Of a stretch of 32,279 nt of DNA, positions 19,235 through 26,132 are shown piece by piece. The position numbers and the translations under genes are program-made. How positions within the stretch are numbered: the stretch's first letter is position 1; each line of letters opens with the position of its first letter. Source of the DNA: Candidatus Bathyarchaeota archaeon (GTDB lineage: Archaea; Thermoproteota; Bathyarchaeia; 40CM-2-53-6; DTDX01); NCBI GenBank assembly GCA_018396815.1, contig JAGTQY010000008.1, positions 1-32,279 on the forward strand, in the 5' to 3' direction. Under the pieces are notes generated by a model that did not search any database, was not told where the DNA came from, and saw only the letters and a list, made by a program, of their open reading frames with translations.

Positions 19235-19960
19235 TTGGTTAAGAAATGTCCTGCATGTGGATTTGACAATAGAGATGATGCCAATTTCTGCGCTAATTGT
19301 GGGGTTTCTTTAGCAGCTCCACCCACAGTCAAACCGGTTCCTGCAGTAAGAGTTGTTTCTCCAGTTGCTCCTCCAGCTCCAATTCGAGTTCCACCACCAG
19401 GAATGTGCTATTACCATCCTAATTTACCAGCTGCTTATATTTGCGCTAGATGCGGAAGAGCAATATGCAAGGATTGCGCTAAAATTTACAATGGTTTAGT
19501 GCTTTGTCCTCAATGCTATTCGCTTGTAGCTGTACCTGAATATGTTCCTCCACCAGCTGTGCCAGCTCCTCCGCCACCACCAACTTATGCTCCGCCACCA
19601 CCACCAACTTATCCACCTGCTAGAGCTTTATGGGGTTTTATAATATCTCTTATTGCAGGTATATTAATCATAATTAATGCTGCGGCTTTGCTTTCAGCAG
19701 GTTTCTACGCTACTTTAGTTGGAATATTCCCGTGGATAAGTTGGTTTGGTGCGCCTCCGCCATGGCTTTTAGTTGTTATAGGATTAATTTTAGGTATAAT
19801 AGCATGTATAGGCGCATTATTAATGATACTTGGTTATGGAACAATAGGAAGCGTAGTAGTATTCCCAGCAGCTATAATCTCATTAGTGCTTGGTGGAGGA
19901 TTCGTAGCAGGTTTCGTGTTAGGCATAGTTGGCGGAATCATGGGAATGCTTGGCAGATAA
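19235..19960 (+). CDS. Membrane protein with zinc ribbon and B-box-like finger
   Basis: A TTG start sits behind AAGGAGG. In 241 residues the order is: a zinc ribbon (CPACGFDNRDDANFCANCG), a Pro-rich linker, a B-box-like finger with ligands in CYYH, CARC, CKDC and CPQC, a second Pro-rich linker, and a hydrophobic C-terminal 115 residues with about four membrane helices. Both zinc modules therefore face the cytosol on a membrane anchor. It opens the ubiquitin-like locus, 51 bp before the JAMM gene. A paralogue closes the locus, sharing 72 identical bases over the finger. An E3-like or adaptor role is inference; similar fingers occur in other archaeal membrane proteins. Confidence 0.85.
   Translation: MVKKCPACGFDNRDDANFCANCGVSLAAPPTVKPVPAVRVVSPVAPPAPIRVPPPGMCYYHPNLPAAYICARCGRAICKDCAKIYNGLVLCPQCYSLVAVPEYVPPPAVPAPPPPPTYAPPPPPTYPPARALWGFIISLIAGILIIINAAALLSAGFYATLVGIFPWISWFGAPPPWLLVVIGLILGIIACIGALLMILGYGTIGSVVVFPAAIISLVLGGGFVAGFVLGIVGGIMGMLGR
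19399..19470 (+). repeat. 72-bp direct repeat, copy 1
   Basis: This is identical, including synonymous positions, to 23974-24045. It encodes the first part of the B-box-like finger. After two mismatches the identity resumes for about 16 bases (ATTGCGCTAAAATTTA). Confidence 0.95.
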
Positions 19961-20011: not shown

Positions 20012-21616
20012 TTGAGGCTTGAAATAAAAGTGGTTTCACTCAAAGTTTCAAAAAATATTTTTGAAAAAATAATGAAGGATGTTAATGAAAGCCCAGATAA
20101 GAAAGTTGTAGGAGTTTTAATCGGTAAAATGAATAAAGATTCCCTAGTTATAGAGGATGTTGCAAGTGGTGAAGTTAAAAGAAACGGTGTAACTATCTCT
20201 TTAACTCCTACAGCTATAGCTAAAATAGCTGATAAAATATTAAAAGGAGAAATAAAAGGGAATATTATTGGATGGTATCATACTCATCCAGGATATAGCG
20301 TTGCTATGTCTAAAATAGACGAAAAAACTCAAAATATTTTAAGCCAGTTTTATCCTGAAACTATTAGTTTAGTTTTAGATCCTACATTTAAAGAATATAT
20401 GTTTTATACTTTAGATGAGAAAAAAAGGTTAAAACCTATTGAAGAAAATAAAATAAAGTTTTTTGGTTCAGGGGATATTTCGGAATGGAAGCAGCCACCA
20501 ATTAAGAAAAGCGAGGAGATTCCCCCATCAATTGAGCCTTCACCTTTTCCCCCTGTTAGAAAGCCTTTAAGTAAAAAACAAATTTGTGCTTTAACATTAA
20601 CCTTAATTTTAATTGCTGCTTTAATTTTAGGTTTTTTAATTTGGGGTTACGGGCAATATGGTGGAGGCTTACCTTTAATTAAACATACTCCCATTACAAA
20701 CGCTGTTGTAGGTTCAAGCATTACTCTTAAAGCTGAAGTTACAGGTGGCGTAGGTGGAATAGCTAATGTCACATTGTATTACGAATGGTCTAAATTTGTT
20801 AAAGCTAATAGTGAAATTTCAAGTGTTCAAATGCCTTGGAAATCTGCTTTAATGCTTCTTGTAGCAGCTGGAGGAAACGAATATGCTTATACTATACCAG
20901 GCTCTGAAGTTTTAGGTGATATAGATTATTTTATTGTGGCAGTCGATAAAGCTGGAAATAAAGCTAGCACATCAATTCAAACAATTAAAGTAGCTGATTT
21001 TGATATTTCCCCTTTAACAGATTCAATTACAGTTTATGTGGGAAGCTCAACATCAGTTAAAATTTTAGTTAAATCAATAAATGGTTTTTCTTCTAAAGTA
21101 AAGTTTTCAACAGCAACACCCCCATATGGAATTTTAATCTCTATTAATCCATCTGAAATTACTCTTTCACCAGACGGAAGCGCAGTAACAACATTAATTG
21201 TTTCAGTTCAATCAGCTCCAGGAACTTTCAGGGGAATCTTCAATTTAGAGGTTTATGGAGAATCAGGTGAAGCTAAACACTTAACTATTTTAACGGTAAC
21301 TGTTCCAAATCTAGATTTTTCTATAGAGCCTAAAACAAAAACCGTACCTAAAGGTGAATCCGCCTTATATAATATTAAGCTTGTTCCCTCCTTTAATTTC
21401 ACCGCTGATATAACTTTTACTTTAAACGGTTTACCTGAAGGGACTTCATGGGAAATTATTTTACCTCAAAATAAACTTGAATTAGCAAATTTGATAAATT
21501 TAATTTTAAAAATTGATACAACATCTAAAACTCAATCTGGAACATATAATTTAACAGTTATCATTGTTGGAGGGGGATTAAAACTTCAAGAAACAATAAC
21601 GTTAATCATAAAGTGA
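20012..21616 (+). CDS. Membrane-anchored JAMM/MPN protein with extracellular Ig-like region
   Basis: The N-terminal ~150 residues form an MPN domain. The zinc/active motif HTHPGYSVAMSKID gives H90, H92, S100 and D103, like Rpn11. The usual Glu three residues before the first Gly (ExxG) is K31 in KVVGVLIG, which looks like Rpn8. A basic linker and one membrane helix (about 190-212) follow, then about 320 residues of beta-rich Ig-like modules predicted outside. Rpn11-type enzymes cleave ubiquitin-like proteins from targets; activity here is uncertain without the Glu. The TTG at 20012 lacks a good ribosome site, and a GTG at 20030 behind a weak GAGG is an alternative. It lies 96 bp before the Ubl gene. 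Confidence 0.88.
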   Translation: MRLEIKVVSLKVSKNIFEKIMKDVNESPDKKVVGVLIGKMNKDSLVIEDVASGEVKRNGVTISLTPTAIAKIADKILKGEIKGNIIGWYHTHPGYSVAMSKIDEKTQNILSQFYPETISLVLDPTFKEYMFYTLDEKKRLKPIEENKIKFFGSGDISEWKQPPIKKSEEIPPSIEPSPFPPVRKPLSKKQICALTLTLILIAALILGFLIWGYGQYGGGLPLIKHTPITNAVVGSSITLKAEVTGGVGGIANVTLYYEWSKFVKANSEISSVQMPWKSALMLLVAAGGNEYAYTIPGSEVLGDIDYFIVAVDKAGNKASTSIQTIKVADFDISPLTDSITVYVGSSTSVKILVKSINGFSSKVKFSTATPPYGILISINPSEITLSPDGSAVTTLIVSVQSAPGTFRGIFNLEVYGESGEAKHLTILTVTVPNLDFSIEPKTKTVPKGESALYNIKLVPSFNFTADITFTLNGLPEGTSWEIILPQNKLELANLINLILKIDTTSKTQSGTYNLTVIIVGGGLKLQETITLIIK

Positions 21617-21712: not shown

Positions 21713-21955
21713 ATGAGGTTATTTATTCAAGCTCCAATAGGGCCGCAAACAGGTTTAGCTGAAATAGAAGTTATTCCAGACCATACAATAGGTGAAATTA
21801 AACAGCAGGTTTGCGCTTCCTTTGGTATAGATCCATCAACTGTAGCCTTAATGTATGGCGGTGTAATTCTCGATGATAATACTACTGTTGCTAAAGCAGG
21901 AATTCCTGAAAACGCTCAATTAGCTTTAATGCCTTTTAATATTGTAGGCGGCTAA
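21713..21955 (+). CDS. Ubiquitin-like modifier ending in Gly-Gly
   Basis: This 80-residue beta-grasp protein aligns with ubiquitin along its length: a starting strand MRLFIQAP, the IGEIKQQVCASFGI helix, the LMYGGVILDD strand-turn (ubiquitin LIFAGKQLED), and a last strand ALMPFNIVGG. The frame stops directly after the two glycines, so the C-terminus is ready for activation and needs no processing. Only K30 (near ubiquitin K27) and K61 could carry chains. The strongest ribosome site of the locus precedes it, suggesting high expression. The E2 gene begins 5 bases after its stop. Confidence 0.93.
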   Translation: MRLFIQAPIGPQTGLAEIEVIPDHTIGEIKQQVCASFGIDPSTVALMYGGVILDDNTTVAKAGIPENAQLALMPFNIVGG

Positions 21956-21960
21956 AAAAT

Positions 21961-22518
21961 TTGGATGTTGAACTTTTATATAAGGAAAAAAAAGCTGTTA
22001 ACCATCAGTTTCCTATGGTAACCGCCTTAAATGATCCTCCATCAATTTATGAAGGTCTCATTAGATGCGAAAAAGGCGAAGTTAAAAAGCTTGCTGAAGA
22101 AAAAATTTGGCCTTTCACAGAATACGTGAATTGGCATAGGTTTAGACTTGAATTACCTGGTGAATACCCTATTAAACCTCCTATAGTTACATGGCTTACT
22201 GAAATTTCTCATCCAAATATTGTTCCTAAAATTCCTGGAGCTGTATGTGTATCCATTTTAGGGGAAGGTTGGAAACCAAGTTTAAGATTAGCCTCTGTAA
22301 TAAATGCTTTATATTATCTTCTTTCAGATCCAAACCCTACTAATGTTTTTGATCATCCAAACTGCTTGAAAGCAGCTGAAGTATGTCGAAGATATGGTTT
22401 TCCAAAAATGGGTGAGAAAAAAACCGAGAAAACCGAAACCTTTAATGTTATTCCTATACCTTCCTCATGCGTAATAGAAAAACAAAATGAAATCCTTCGT
22501 TTCAGAATAATCGAGTAG
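21961..22518 (+). CDS. E2 ubiquitin-conjugating enzyme-like protein
   Basis: This is a UBC-fold protein of 185 residues starting at TTG, 5 bp after the Ubl stop. The E2 signature is clear: YPIKPPIVTWLT, then HPN (residues 84-86), the catalytic Cys C96 in GAVCVSIL, W at the next loop (GEGWKPSLRL) and LLSDPNPTNVFDHPNC. E2 enzymes accept the modifier from E1 on this cysteine and pass it to a target lysine. The C-terminal 30 residues after the fold are not recognised. Two consecutive TAG codons end the frame. No strong ribosome site is seen, so coupling to Ubl translation is likely. Confidence 0.93.
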   Translation: MDVELLYKEKKAVNHQFPMVTALNDPPSIYEGLIRCEKGEVKKLAEEKIWPFTEYVNWHRFRLELPGEYPIKPPIVTWLTEISHPNIVPKIPGAVCVSILGEGWKPSLRLASVINALYYLLSDPNPTNVFDHPNCLKAAEVCRRYGFPKMGEKKTEKTETFNVIPIPSSCVIEKQNEILRFRIIE

Positions 22519-22524
22519 TAGGAT

Positions 22525-23766
22525 ATGCAGGTTAAAGCTGAAATTCCATTATTTAAAGAAGTTTATATTGAAGTTAATGAAAATGAAAAAATTAAAGATT
22601 TAAAAAGGAAAATTTGCGAGAGACTTAATTTACCTGAAAATTTAACTCTTCTTCTTTTAAACGGTAAAGTTCTTCCAGAAAACTCTTTAATTAAAGAGTT
22701 TGATTTTAAATCTAAAGCTGTAACAATCGATTATTTATGGGCTAGATTTCTTCCTCTTTGGGGAGAAAAAGCTCAAAAAGCTTTAAGAGAATCTTCAATT
22801 ATTTTAGTTGGAGCTGGAGCTTTAGGAAATGAAATAGCTAAAAACCTTGCTATGCTTGGTATTGGAGAAATAATAATAGTGGATTACGATAAAGTAGAAT
22901 TCTCTAACTTAACTAGAAACGTGTTTTTTGATGAAAACGATATAGGTAATTTTAAATCTTTAGTGTTAGCTAAAAAACTTAAAAGTAAATACTCATATTT
23001 AAAAATTGAAGTTTATAATTGTAAAATTGAAGATTTACCTCTTGAAGTTTTTTTAAGATCAAACGTGATTATTTCAGGGTTAGATAATTTAGCTTCAAGA
23101 GTTTATTTATCAATAATTGCAAGTAAATACAAAATTCCATTGATTGACGGTGGAATAAACGGTTATCAAGGAAGAATTCAAGTTTTTATTCCTCCTAACT
23201 CTCCATGTCCCATATGTGCTATTCCATTGAAGGATTATGGTAGATTAATTGGGCTTAGAAATCCATGCAGCAACCCAATAATTGAAGGAACAGTACCTTC
23301 TCTTCCAACAGTTGCCTCTTTAGTTTCAGCTATTCAAGCTCAAGAAGCTGTTAAATTAATTTTTAACCAGAAAATACAAGAAAATATTGAAAAACCTTTA
23401 AATGGACTTTTAATTTTAGATTTAAGATTCAACCGTTACAATATTCTGGAGCTTAAAAAAAATCCTGAATGCATTGTTTGTGGAAGAAACGGTCTAGGAA
23501 AAAGCGAAACTAAAATAATTGAGGTTTCAATTGAAGATTGTTTAAACTCTATAGCTGAAATGATTAAAATCGCCTCTATAAAAACTGATTTAAAAGAACC
23601 GCATGAAATAACAGTTTTTAAAGAAAATTTTAAAGGCGAATTAATTAAGTTACCAGCTTTTAGTAAATTAGACGAGTATAAATTAAAAAAGGGAAGCTTA
23701 ATTAGGGCTATATTTAAAAACTTAAAGCAAGAAGATTATAAGGAAGTTTTAATTAAATTAATTTAA
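22525..23766 (+). CDS. E1-like activating enzyme with N-terminal ubiquitin-like domain
   Basis: The 413 residues begin with about 72 that look like a ubiquitin-like fold: KIKDLKRKICERLNL helix, LLLLNGKVLPENS, then a last strand AVTIDYLW. The ThiF/E1 adenylation domain follows, with GAGALG at 96-101, VDYDKVEFSNLTRN, and SGLDNLASR. A zinc site is formed by C228/C231 (CPIC) and C316/C319 (CIVC). C248 in RNPCSNP is the best nearby candidate for the thioester cysteine, but this is not certain. The last ~90 residues may be an E2-binding ubiquitin-fold domain. The gene starts 6 bp after the E2 stop. Confidence 0.9.
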   Translation: MQVKAEIPLFKEVYIEVNENEKIKDLKRKICERLNLPENLTLLLLNGKVLPENSLIKEFDFKSKAVTIDYLWARFLPLWGEKAQKALRESSIILVGAGALGNEIAKNLAMLGIGEIIIVDYDKVEFSNLTRNVFFDENDIGNFKSLVLAKKLKSKYSYLKIEVYNCKIEDLPLEVFLRSNVIISGLDNLASRVYLSIIASKYKIPLIDGGINGYQGRIQVFIPPNSPCPICAIPLKDYGRLIGLRNPCSNPIIEGTVPSLPTVASLVSAIQAQEAVKLIFNQKIQENIEKPLNGLLILDLRFNRYNILELKKNPECIVCGRNGLGKSETKIIEVSIEDCLNSIAEMIKIASIKTDLKEPHEITVFKENFKGELIKLPAFSKLDEYKLKKGSLIRAIFKNLKQEDYKEVLIKLI

Positions 23767-23803: not shown

Positions 23804-24187
23804 ATGGTTATATGCAGTTTTTGCAGTAAAAATAATAGAAGTGAAAGTAAATTCTGTTATAATTGCGGTAAACCTTTACAAAGGCAACCTGTAAAAGTTA
23901 ATGTTTTACTCCCAATTTTAAAAGCTTCAAGCGGTTTTATGGTTAAGCCTTTACCAAGAATAATACCTGGTGTAGGAATGTGCTATTACCATCCTAATTT
24001 ACCAGCTGCTTATATTTGCGCTAGATGCGGAAGAGCAATATGCAAATATTGCGCTAAAATTTATGGAGCATTAGTTTTTTGTCCTGAATGCTTCTCACGA
24101 ATAACCTTTATTCAACCAACTACTCAATTTGCTCCAGCTTACCCATCTTCTTCAATCTTTCAATCGCCTGCATCAATCTTTCCTTAG
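23804..24187 (+). CDS. Soluble zinc-ribbon and B-box-like protein
   Basis: In 127 residues there is an N-terminal zinc ribbon (CSFCSKNN...CYNCG), a linker, and a B-box-like finger nearly identical to that of the protein at 19235 (CYYH, CARC, CKYC, CPEC). The protein then ends in a short Pro/Ser-rich tail with no membrane segment. The paralogue has four helices there, so this copy may be truncated. Its last 68 bases overlap the 3' end of the opposite-strand gene. It follows the E1 by 37 bp, so it is likely in the same transcript. Role as adaptor or E3-like factor is inferred from position only. Confidence 0.8.
   Translation: MVICSFCSKNNRSESKFCYNCGKPLQRQPVKVNVLLPILKASSGFMVKPLPRIIPGVGMCYYHPNLPAAYICARCGRAICKYCAKIYGALVFCPECFSRITFIQPTTQFAPAYPSSSIFQSPASIFP
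23974..24045 (+). repeat. 72-bp direct repeat, copy 2
   Basis: Identical to 19399-19470. Flanking parts of the two genes differ at protein and DNA level, so the identity is confined to the finger. Confidence 0.95.
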
Positions 24188-26132
24188 TCAATCCTAAATC
24201 TTCAATAGCTTTAGGGATAGAAATTGTTCCTCCATGAGAAACAATATAATCCAAAACTTTTTTATCTTCCTCCGTTAAAAGTGAAGTTGAAGCAGCATAA
24301 GGAAATTGGTAAGCTCCACATTTACTACAGTATAAAGCGCCTTTAGGAATTTCTAAACCGCATTGAATGCATTTATTTTTAGGTTGTTCAGGCTTTAATA
24401 ATTTAGGGAAACCAATCCTAATAAGAGATCCAATTTTATTAAGAAGATGAAATTTTTTAGCATAAACAAAAATTATTGTAGCAACTGTTGCAGTTAAAAT
24501 TAACCCTATAATAAATAGAATTGCTGTTGAAGGATAAATTAAAGTTGAAGCTGAGCTTCCTGAAAATTTTTCTGAACCTAAAAACTCGACTTTAATTTTT
24601 ATTGAGTTTACTGAGGAAAATTTGCATTTCGAAAAAGCTTCACCAAAATTATTTGTTAAAACTGTTTCTTTATAAATTGGGTTATCATTAACTATAAAAG
24701 TGAATGTTAAAGAAGCATTTGAAATAGGGTTATTAAATTCATCTTTTAAAATTGCTTTAACTTGAATTTCATTTCCTTGAATAAAAGGTTGCGTAATTAA
24801 AGTTAAACTTGTTTTTATAGGTTCAACAGTAATGATGGTTAAAGCATAGCAACTTGAATAATTTTCGTTTCCCTCGTATAAAGCTTTAATTTGAATTCTC
24901 CCTTTATTTAAAGGTTTATATGTAAATTTAGCTTCACCTAAACTATTCGTTAAACCAGTTAAAATTTGAGAATCTGCATGAAGCTTAATAGTAGCCCCGC
25001 CTATAGACTCATTATACTCATCAATAAGCTTAACTTTAATTAAAGATTCTTCATTCACTTTTCCAGTTTCAGGTGCTTCAATTACAATTTTAGTTGAAGC
25101 TTTCTCTATAGTTAAAGTTATTGAAGAATTTGAAGCTTCAAAAATGTTTGATCCAGGGTATTCAACTTCAACTTTATATTTTCCAGCTTTAAAATTCGCA
25201 TTAAAAATTAAAGTTGCTTCTCCAGTATTGCTTGTTAAATTCATGCCTATAAAACTTGAGTTTAAATAAAACTTTACGGGTGCTTCAACAATTGGTTTTT
25301 CATTTACATCTTTAAGTTTAATAGTTAAAATTGTTGATTCTTTGTATTTAATTGTTGAAGGCGCATAAATATCAATTTTAACTTTTAATTTAACAACTTT
25401 AACTTGAATATTGAAATTTTCAATATGAGATATACCTCTAAAATCAAAATATAGAATTTGAAATGTTAATTGATGAATTCCCAATGCTGCTTCTAAAGGT
25501 GCTGAAACAAAAAGAAATGTTTCTAAAGTTTCTTCAGGTTTTAAACTTCCTAAACTTTTAAAATTTGGAGTCACAATTAATCCTGAAGATTCAACAACTT
25601 TCATTGAAATATTAAGCATTTCATCGTTTCCACCATTTTTAAAGTTTATTTTTAATTCAGAAGGTTTTTCAGCTCCAGCTTGAGCTTCAACAATTGAGAA
25701 ATCGAAATCTTTAATAAACAATTTAACAATAATAAGTTTAAATTGATAAACATCTTCTTGAATAGCTATAGTTTCATTAAGCCAGTAAAGCTCAATCCGC
25801 ATTAAATATTCTTTAGGTCCTTTAAGATTAGAAACAACTATTTTTCTTGAAGTTTCACTGTTTAAAGGACAGAACCAAGGTTGAGAAGCTTCATCATAAA
25901 CTAAAATGTTATCCGCGAAAACTGTTAAGAAAAATTTTGGGTCTTCAAAAGTTGATGTTACACCTTGATTCCTTACAGTTACATCAATTAAAATAGGTTC
26001 ACCATCATAAACTTTAGGGTTAAATTGAACATTTTTAAAGAAAGCTTCCTTAAAACCTTCAGTTTGAGTAATGAAACCTAAAAAAATTGTTGAAGCTAAA
26101 AGAAAAATTAAAAAAACTTTTTTAATGTTCAA
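24120..26132 (-). CDS. Receptor-like membrane protein: Ig-like repeats, zinc ribbon, winged helix
   Basis: This protein of 670 residues starts at TTG with a signal peptide (KKVFLIFLLASTIFLGF). The outside part holds a CARDB-like pair of modules and then three Ig-like (Big-type) repeats with the recurring TNxxGEA pattern. One membrane helix (TAILFIIGLILTATVATIIF) lies near residue 560. The cytosolic end has a zinc ribbon (CIQCG...CSKCG) and a winged-helix-like domain (VLDYIVSHGGTISIPKAIEDL). This looks like a surface sensor or adhesin with a nucleic-acid-binding tail; the function is unknown. It converges on the last gene of the ubiquitin-like locus with a 68-bp overlap. Confidence 0.78.
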   Translation of the reverse strand: MNIKKVFLIFLLASTIFLGFITQTEGFKEAFFKNVQFNPKVYDGEPILIDVTVRNQGVTSTFEDPKFFLTVFADNILVYDEASQPWFCPLNSETSRKIVVSNLKGPKEYLMRIELYWLNETIAIQEDVYQFKLIIVKLFIKDFDFSIVEAQAGAEKPSELKINFKNGGNDEMLNISMKVVESSGLIVTPNFKSLGSLKPEETLETFLFVSAPLEAALGIHQLTFQILYFDFRGISHIENFNIQVKVVKLKVKIDIYAPSTIKYKESTILTIKLKDVNEKPIVEAPVKFYLNSSFIGMNLTSNTGEATLIFNANFKAGKYKVEVEYPGSNIFEASNSSITLTIEKASTKIVIEAPETGKVNEESLIKVKLIDEYNESIGGATIKLHADSQILTGLTNSLGEAKFTYKPLNKGRIQIKALYEGNENYSSCYALTIITVEPIKTSLTLITQPFIQGNEIQVKAILKDEFNNPISNASLTFTFIVNDNPIYKETVLTNNFGEAFSKCKFSSVNSIKIKVEFLGSEKFSGSSASTLIYPSTAILFIIGLILTATVATIIFVYAKKFHLLNKIGSLIRIGFPKLLKPEQPKNKCIQCGLEIPKGALYCSKCGAYQFPYAASTSLLTEEDKKVLDYIVSHGGTISIPKAIEDLGLTKERLMQAIERLKKMGKLEQIE

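Follow-up and report, generated by a model that had tools for sequence, protein, structure and literature searches.

The window, a stretch of 32,279 nucleotides, carries an open reading frame for a predicted membrane protein with a JAMM domain, located among the genes of a ubiquitin-like modifier (Ubl) system. The zinc ligands of this domain are in place and a lysine occupies the position of the catalytic glutamate. The question raised by the locus is whether such a protein is still an isopeptidase, which relies on another acid, or whether it has become a binding subunit. Both options had been put forward in a sequence-only reading of the window, together with a third, a receptor that would sense outside and act inside.

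Results

The open reading frame (nucleotides 20012–21616, + strand) starts with a TTG, is open throughout and encodes a protein of 534 amino acids, termed here JAMM-A. In the congener (G001) of the organism from which the window derives (G000), the gene begins at a matching GTG and the frame is closed by a stop shortly before it; the GTG at 20030 is therefore probably the true start, and Lys31 would thereby become K25. All residue numbers given below are counted from the TTG at 20012 (Lys = 31). The JAMM/MPN domain (20030–20503; residues 7–164) matches Pfam JAB (PF01398) with an E value of 5e-13, and its closest solved relative is the Rpn11 protein of Caldiarchaeum (6fjv, E 9e-14). When modelled alone with AlphaFold2, the domain reaches a pLDDT of 93.8, and Foldseek searches with this model retrieve CSN5, CsRpn11, Rpn11 and Sst2. 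The model shows two short strands (55–58 and 61–64) where Ins-1, a hairpin that aligns the Ubl tail (PMC6043591), is expected.

The full-length AlphaFold2 model (mean pLDDT 80.9) places a transmembrane helix at residues 188–215 (20573–20656), followed by three beta-sandwich modules extending from residue 222 to the end. Hydropathy detects a single membrane segment, at 191–211. The 15 residues before this segment include four Lys/Arg and the 15 residues after it, one; as the positive charges sit on the JAMM side, this half most likely faces the cytoplasm. The three modules (20675–21613; residues about 222–334, 338–431 and 433–533) would then be outside the cell, and Foldseek relates them to Ig/titin-like proteins. 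This outside half comprises about 315 residues in the model, in good agreement with the approximately 320 Ig-like residues that had been read from the sequence. A scan of named genomes yielded no JAMM; its single match, in a Bacilli MAG, covers a stretch of the outside half.

JAMM-A is the second gene of an operon. It is preceded by ZnB1 (19235–19960, + strand), in which a zinc ribbon and a B-box-like zinc finger are joined to a part that spans the membrane several times. Downstream, on the same strand, are the genes for a Ubl modifier of 80 amino acids that already ends in Gly-Gly (21713–21955; PF00240, E 4e-11), an E2-like conjugating enzyme with the HPN...C motif (21961–22518; PF00179, E 3e-18), an E1-like activating enzyme of the ThiF type with an N-terminal Ubl-like domain (22525–23766; PF00899, E 1e-51; PF00240, E 3e-8) and, directly after E1, ZnB2, a small zinc-ribbon/B-box-like protein (23804–24187). 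IgTM follows on the opposite strand (24120–26132, − strand); it has Ig-like repeats on the outside and a zinc ribbon on the inside of a membrane segment. A matching gene row is present in G001, G002, G010, G013 and G036, and also, distributed over two contigs, in G005. The E2 of this operon type was found in 14 of the 257 genomes of the class, every one of them in the order of the window. Ubl proteins are 80–95% identical to that of the window, versus 30–76% for JAMM-A proteins; this ubiquitin-like conservation holds between families in which JAMM-A identity is about 30%.

Several features of the neighboring genes can be pointed out. The Ubl-like domain ahead of ThiF in the E1 N-terminus is kept among the relatives aligned. 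ZnB1, with its membrane spans, and ZnB2 are related to each other and flank the Ubl operon. By its position and its zinc fold ZnB2 is a candidate E3, possibly of a non-RING type: it sits after E1, the place at which one might look for a RING E3, and no RING family matched this protein. IgTM adjoins the operon in those genomes whose contigs reach it, its copy in G001 gives a winged-helix match, and it may belong with the JAMM-A operon to one membrane system.

The state of the catalytic column was then compared among relatives. The codon of Lys31 (20102–20104) lies three positions before that of the invariant G34, the first MPN glycine. The sequence-only reading had singled out this residue, and the alignment with 6fjv, gap-free across the Glu column (KKVVGVLIG versus REVAGLLVG), bears it out, as does the Arg found at the same position in G001 and in G002, a member of the next family. 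In G005 the residue is Ala, with a 3-base in-frame deletion. A sequencing error at residue 31 was considered and rejected: two other genomes have Arg there, and the deletion in G005 is in frame. The JAMM-A proteins of G010, G013 and G036 have Glu, as do a membrane JAMM of another class (G539), all ten aligned copies of a soluble second JAMM (JAMM-B, see below), JAMM-C and the Caldiarchaeum-type JAMMs; every soluble JAMM examined has Glu at this column. For JAMM-B, the Glu was read by counting from the invariant Gly (E-Q/R-I-G), as the automatic alignment had a gap there. The zinc motif, H90-x-H92...S100...D103 (20279–20320), was confirmed as intact: H90, H92, S100 and D103 are invariant over the 25 aligned JAMMs. 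The three genomes with Lys or Arg keep all of the invariant JAMM positions G34, G38, W88, H90, H92, S100, D103 and D123.

Aligning the orthologues at residue 31, as had been suggested, gave a mixed picture of Glu, Lys, Arg and Ala. Glu in orthologues had been named in the sequence-only reading as an outcome that would speak against it; it is found in a part of them, and the change represents a loss inside the family and not a misalignment: the loss is real in the clade of the window (families f1 and f2), but it is not family-wide. A tree of the operon genes E1, E2, Ubl and ZnB1 groups G000, G001 and G002 apart from the Glu carriers with 91% support, and a single loss therefore explains these three genomes. 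The same tree places G005 within the otherwise Glu-bearing family f5. The alignment and the tree indicate that Glu is the ancestral state in JAMM-A, that its loss is clade-specific and that it occurred at least twice, in the window clade and in G005. The JAMM-A domain is present in only seven genomes. As the JAMM gene tree gives JAMM-A monophyly a weak support of 45%, orthology rests on synteny.

We next compared selection on the JAMM domain in two pairs of genomes, using a simple counting method. In the Lys/Arg pair (G000-G001) omega is 0.355 (95% interval 0.21–0.59), and in the Glu pair (G010-G013) it is 0.124 (0.06–0.22). The value is higher in the Lys/Arg pair in 99.75% of bootstraps and still below 1; purifying selection on the Lys/Arg JAMM domain is relaxed, not absent. 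No comparable increase is seen in the outside half (0.24 in the Lys/Arg pair versus 0.29 in the Glu pair), and JAMM-B leans the opposite way (0.106 versus 0.183; 91% of bootstraps). In amino acid identity, the outside part exceeds the JAMM domain in the Lys/Arg pair (81% versus 69%), and the order is reversed in the Glu pair (70% versus 85%).

JAMM-B of the window genome is encoded at C2:25138 and has the Glu, the HxH and the SxxD; a further JAMM, of the common archaeal type, is located at C1:97325. Within the order (38 genomes, counted regardless of relatedness) JAMM-B is present in 13 of the 14 genomes with Ubl versus 2 of the 24 genomes without Ubl (p 2.5e-7). Exceptions occur in both directions: G007 has JAMM-B and lacks Ubl, and G009 has Ubl and lacks JAMM-B. 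Every genome with a JAMM-A domain has JAMM-B as well. No conserved gene neighbor of JAMM-B was found across families, so that gene context points to no partner. G009, which has neither a JAMM-A domain nor JAMM-B, encodes on contig C84 (L019/L054) a different JAMM, complete in its catalytic motif and considerably extended at the C-terminus.

The C-terminal ends of the Ubl proteins also differ. Ubl ends in a bare Gly-Gly in G000, G001 and G036, and carries a tail after Gly-Gly in G002, G005, G009, G010, G013, G015 and G021. As the window Ubl already ends in Gly-Gly, it needs no maturation cut. G002 (Arg; tail GGKPN) and G005 (Ala; tail GGGLGLRPAL) have a tailed Ubl and a JAMM-A devoid of Glu, and another enzyme, JAMM-B or other, must therefore mature Ubl in these genomes. 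A rule by which Glu is lost where Ubl needs no maturation was tried and fails, on account of these two genomes and of G036, in which JAMM-A with Glu coexists with a bare Gly-Gly.

In other lineages the JAMM domain is missing altogether. In the four f4 genomes G004, G012, G017 and G023, the gene at the JAMM-A position keeps the membrane segment and the Ig modules and lacks JAMM; in G017 and G004 the DNA ahead of the present start still resembles a broken JAMM beginning, a likeness that is suggestive only. No JAMM-A-type gene was found between ZnB1 and Ubl in G009, G015 and G021. Family f4 also has separate paralogues of the membrane-Ig half, of about 390 amino acids and with no JAMM domain, at loci L087, L088, L090, L091, L094, L096 and L097. 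As these lie elsewhere in the genome, the outside module is also used without JAMM.

Discussion

The reading that we favor, with a probability of roughly 0.52, is that JAMM-A is a former deubiquitinase turned into a zinc-keeping pseudo-enzyme, which serves as a Ubl-binding membrane anchor, and that soluble JAMM-B does the cutting. JAMM-A would have come from a membrane-anchored deubiquitinase that resembled Rpn11 and was active in an archaeal Ubl-E2-E1 system. Replacement of its catalytic Glu by Lys or Arg in f1 and f2 should prevent the zinc-bound water from being activated; the zinc site and the fold would have been retained. On the cytoplasmic face of the membrane, JAMM-A would now bind Ubl or proteins tagged with it and leave them uncut, cleavage having been handed over to the separate JAMM-B. 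JAMM-A thus stands as a candidate for the binding subunit that had been listed among the options: it has no Glu but all zinc ligands, its fold is predicted with high confidence and purifying selection persists. To judge from the residue change, the Lys form would cleave little or not at all. That Ubl binding was kept is suggested by analogy with Sst2, a yeast AMSH-like JAMM of which the Glu-to-Ala mutant E286A was crystallized with ubiquitin (PDB 4msm). JAMM-A would be a natural counterpart of such trap mutants. Like JAMM-A, this mutant is a Glu-less JAMM with the zinc site and the fold; it is laboratory-made, has Ala and binds ubiquitin, whereas JAMM-A is natural, has Lys or Arg and is known from sequence. 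The assignment of the cutting to JAMM-B is likewise a presumption. Some points count against this reading. Lys or Arg next to the zinc, being basic, could interfere with binding of the metal or of Ubl, and the Ubl tails do not strictly track the Glu state. Against a hand-over to JAMM-B count its presence in Ubl-less G007 and its absence from Ubl-bearing G009.

An alternative, somewhat unlikely in our estimation, is that the catalytic half of JAMM-A is a relic in decay: it would have become dispensable after JAMM-B took over and be disappearing stepwise, so that only the anchor and the Ig modules still matter. It is a serious rival because the domain did vanish in f4, where the membrane-Ig part was kept and the DNA of two genomes recalls a broken JAMM start; the empty position between ZnB1 and Ubl in G009, G015 and G021, and the better conservation of the outside part in the Lys/Arg pair, reversed in the Glu pair, fit it too. 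A domain in plain decay, however, is hard to reconcile with an omega clearly below 1, with a reading frame and a full set of invariant JAMM positions kept in three genomes, and with a predicted good fold. The joint occurrence of JAMM-A and JAMM-B in all genomes with a JAMM-A domain would also suit an inactive partner that binds JAMM-B, recruits it to the membrane and perhaps activates it, in the manner of Rpn8/Rpn11 or Abraxas/BRCC36. Eukaryotic MPN-minus subunits do activate their MPN-plus partners (PMC7692841, PMC4140821), and the basic residue in the Glu column had been likened to the inactive Rpn8. Nevertheless, JAMM-B persists without a JAMM-A domain in f4 and in G007, it coexists with Glu-bearing JAMM-A in G010, G013 and G036, and the Rpn11 of Caldiarchaeum is active alone (PMC6043591), all of which makes such a partnership decidedly improbable. 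Least credible, with a very small chance of being correct, is that JAMM-A is still an isopeptidase in which the water is activated by D29, by the lysine itself or by the substrate. The zinc ligands are all intact, D29 lies on the same strand and is found in all three Lys/Arg proteins, and something must remove the Ubl tail in G002. But since D29 stands next to an intact Glu in G539 and in JAMM-C too, it did not come in as a replacement for the lost Glu; G005 lost Glu and gained no acid. For the acids around E46, which the sequence-only reading had offered as replacements, the alignment gives no support: the Glu-Asp at 48–49 is shared with Glu-containing orthologues and therefore does not look like a replacement acid.

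The anchor reading can be set against known systems. CsRpn11, from Ca. Caldiarchaeum subterraneum (6fjv, 6fnn), has the same JAMM fold (TM 0.75, rmsd 2.5) and zinc ligands, and its gene lies beside those of an archaeal-type Ubl, E2 and E1. The genome carrying it among those compared, taken as that of Caldiarchaeum, belongs to the same phylum as the window and to another class. Ubl, E2, E1 and JAMM are found in one cluster in the window as well; the tail after Gly-Gly of a Caldiarchaeum-type Ubl precursor is absent from the window Ubl. CsRpn11 has Glu and neither a membrane segment nor Ig modules, whereas JAMM-A has Lys and a membrane anchor. CsRpn11 is soluble and matures its Ubl precursor (PMC6043591), unlike the situation in the window, where Ubl needs no maturation.

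Rpn8, CSN6 and Abraxas/ABRO1 share with JAMM-A the MPN fold, an incomplete catalytic set and coexistence with an active paralogue. The likeness to Rpn8 holds as far as the loss of Glu is concerned; it does not extend to the zinc site, which JAMM-A keeps and which Abraxas, for one, lost, being inactive for that reason (PMC7692841). The loss of Glu in JAMM-A is independent of the eukaryotic MPN-minus losses. We do not class JAMM-A with these proteins, though it may work likewise as a pseudo-enzyme. A combination of active and inactive MPN subunits such as that of eukaryotes has been stated to be not known in archaea (PMC6043591).

The membrane JAMM of G539 (L128:4686-6473), from the same phylum and another class, resembles JAMM-A in its JAMM domain, its one membrane segment, its large C-terminal half and its clustering with closely related E2, E1 and Ubl. 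It differs in having Glu, in being the sole JAMM match in its genome and in the unrelated sequence of the C-terminal half. Ubl and E2 of G539 form one ORF (L128:9568-10443, − strand; 291 amino acids), joined right after Gly-Gly; as the fusion is in frame, a peptidase cut is needed to free both. In addition, a Caldiarchaeum-type Rpn11 homologue of G330 (L138:5844-6644, − strand) has Glu and, C-terminally, a hydrophobic stretch resembling a membrane span, and is possibly another membrane-anchored archaeal JAMM. A literature search, covering few of the subscription journals, brought up no paper on an archaeal JAMM that is anchored in the membrane or lacks Glu.

A wider reading, to which we give a small chance, is that membrane-bound inactive and soluble active JAMMs cooperate at the membrane. 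They would then form an MPN-minus/MPN-plus pair that arose independently of Rpn8-Rpn11, CSN6-CSN5 and Abraxas-BRCC36, with the active, the Glu-lost and the domain-lost stages all present in living relatives. In the favored reading, with JAMM-A as an anchor, close relatives document how one catalytic residue disappears and the zinc site stays, from an active enzyme to a putative pseudo-enzyme and to loss of the domain. The tethered JAMM, the zinc-finger membrane protein and the outside Ig modules point to a ubiquitin-like system that is tied to the membrane.
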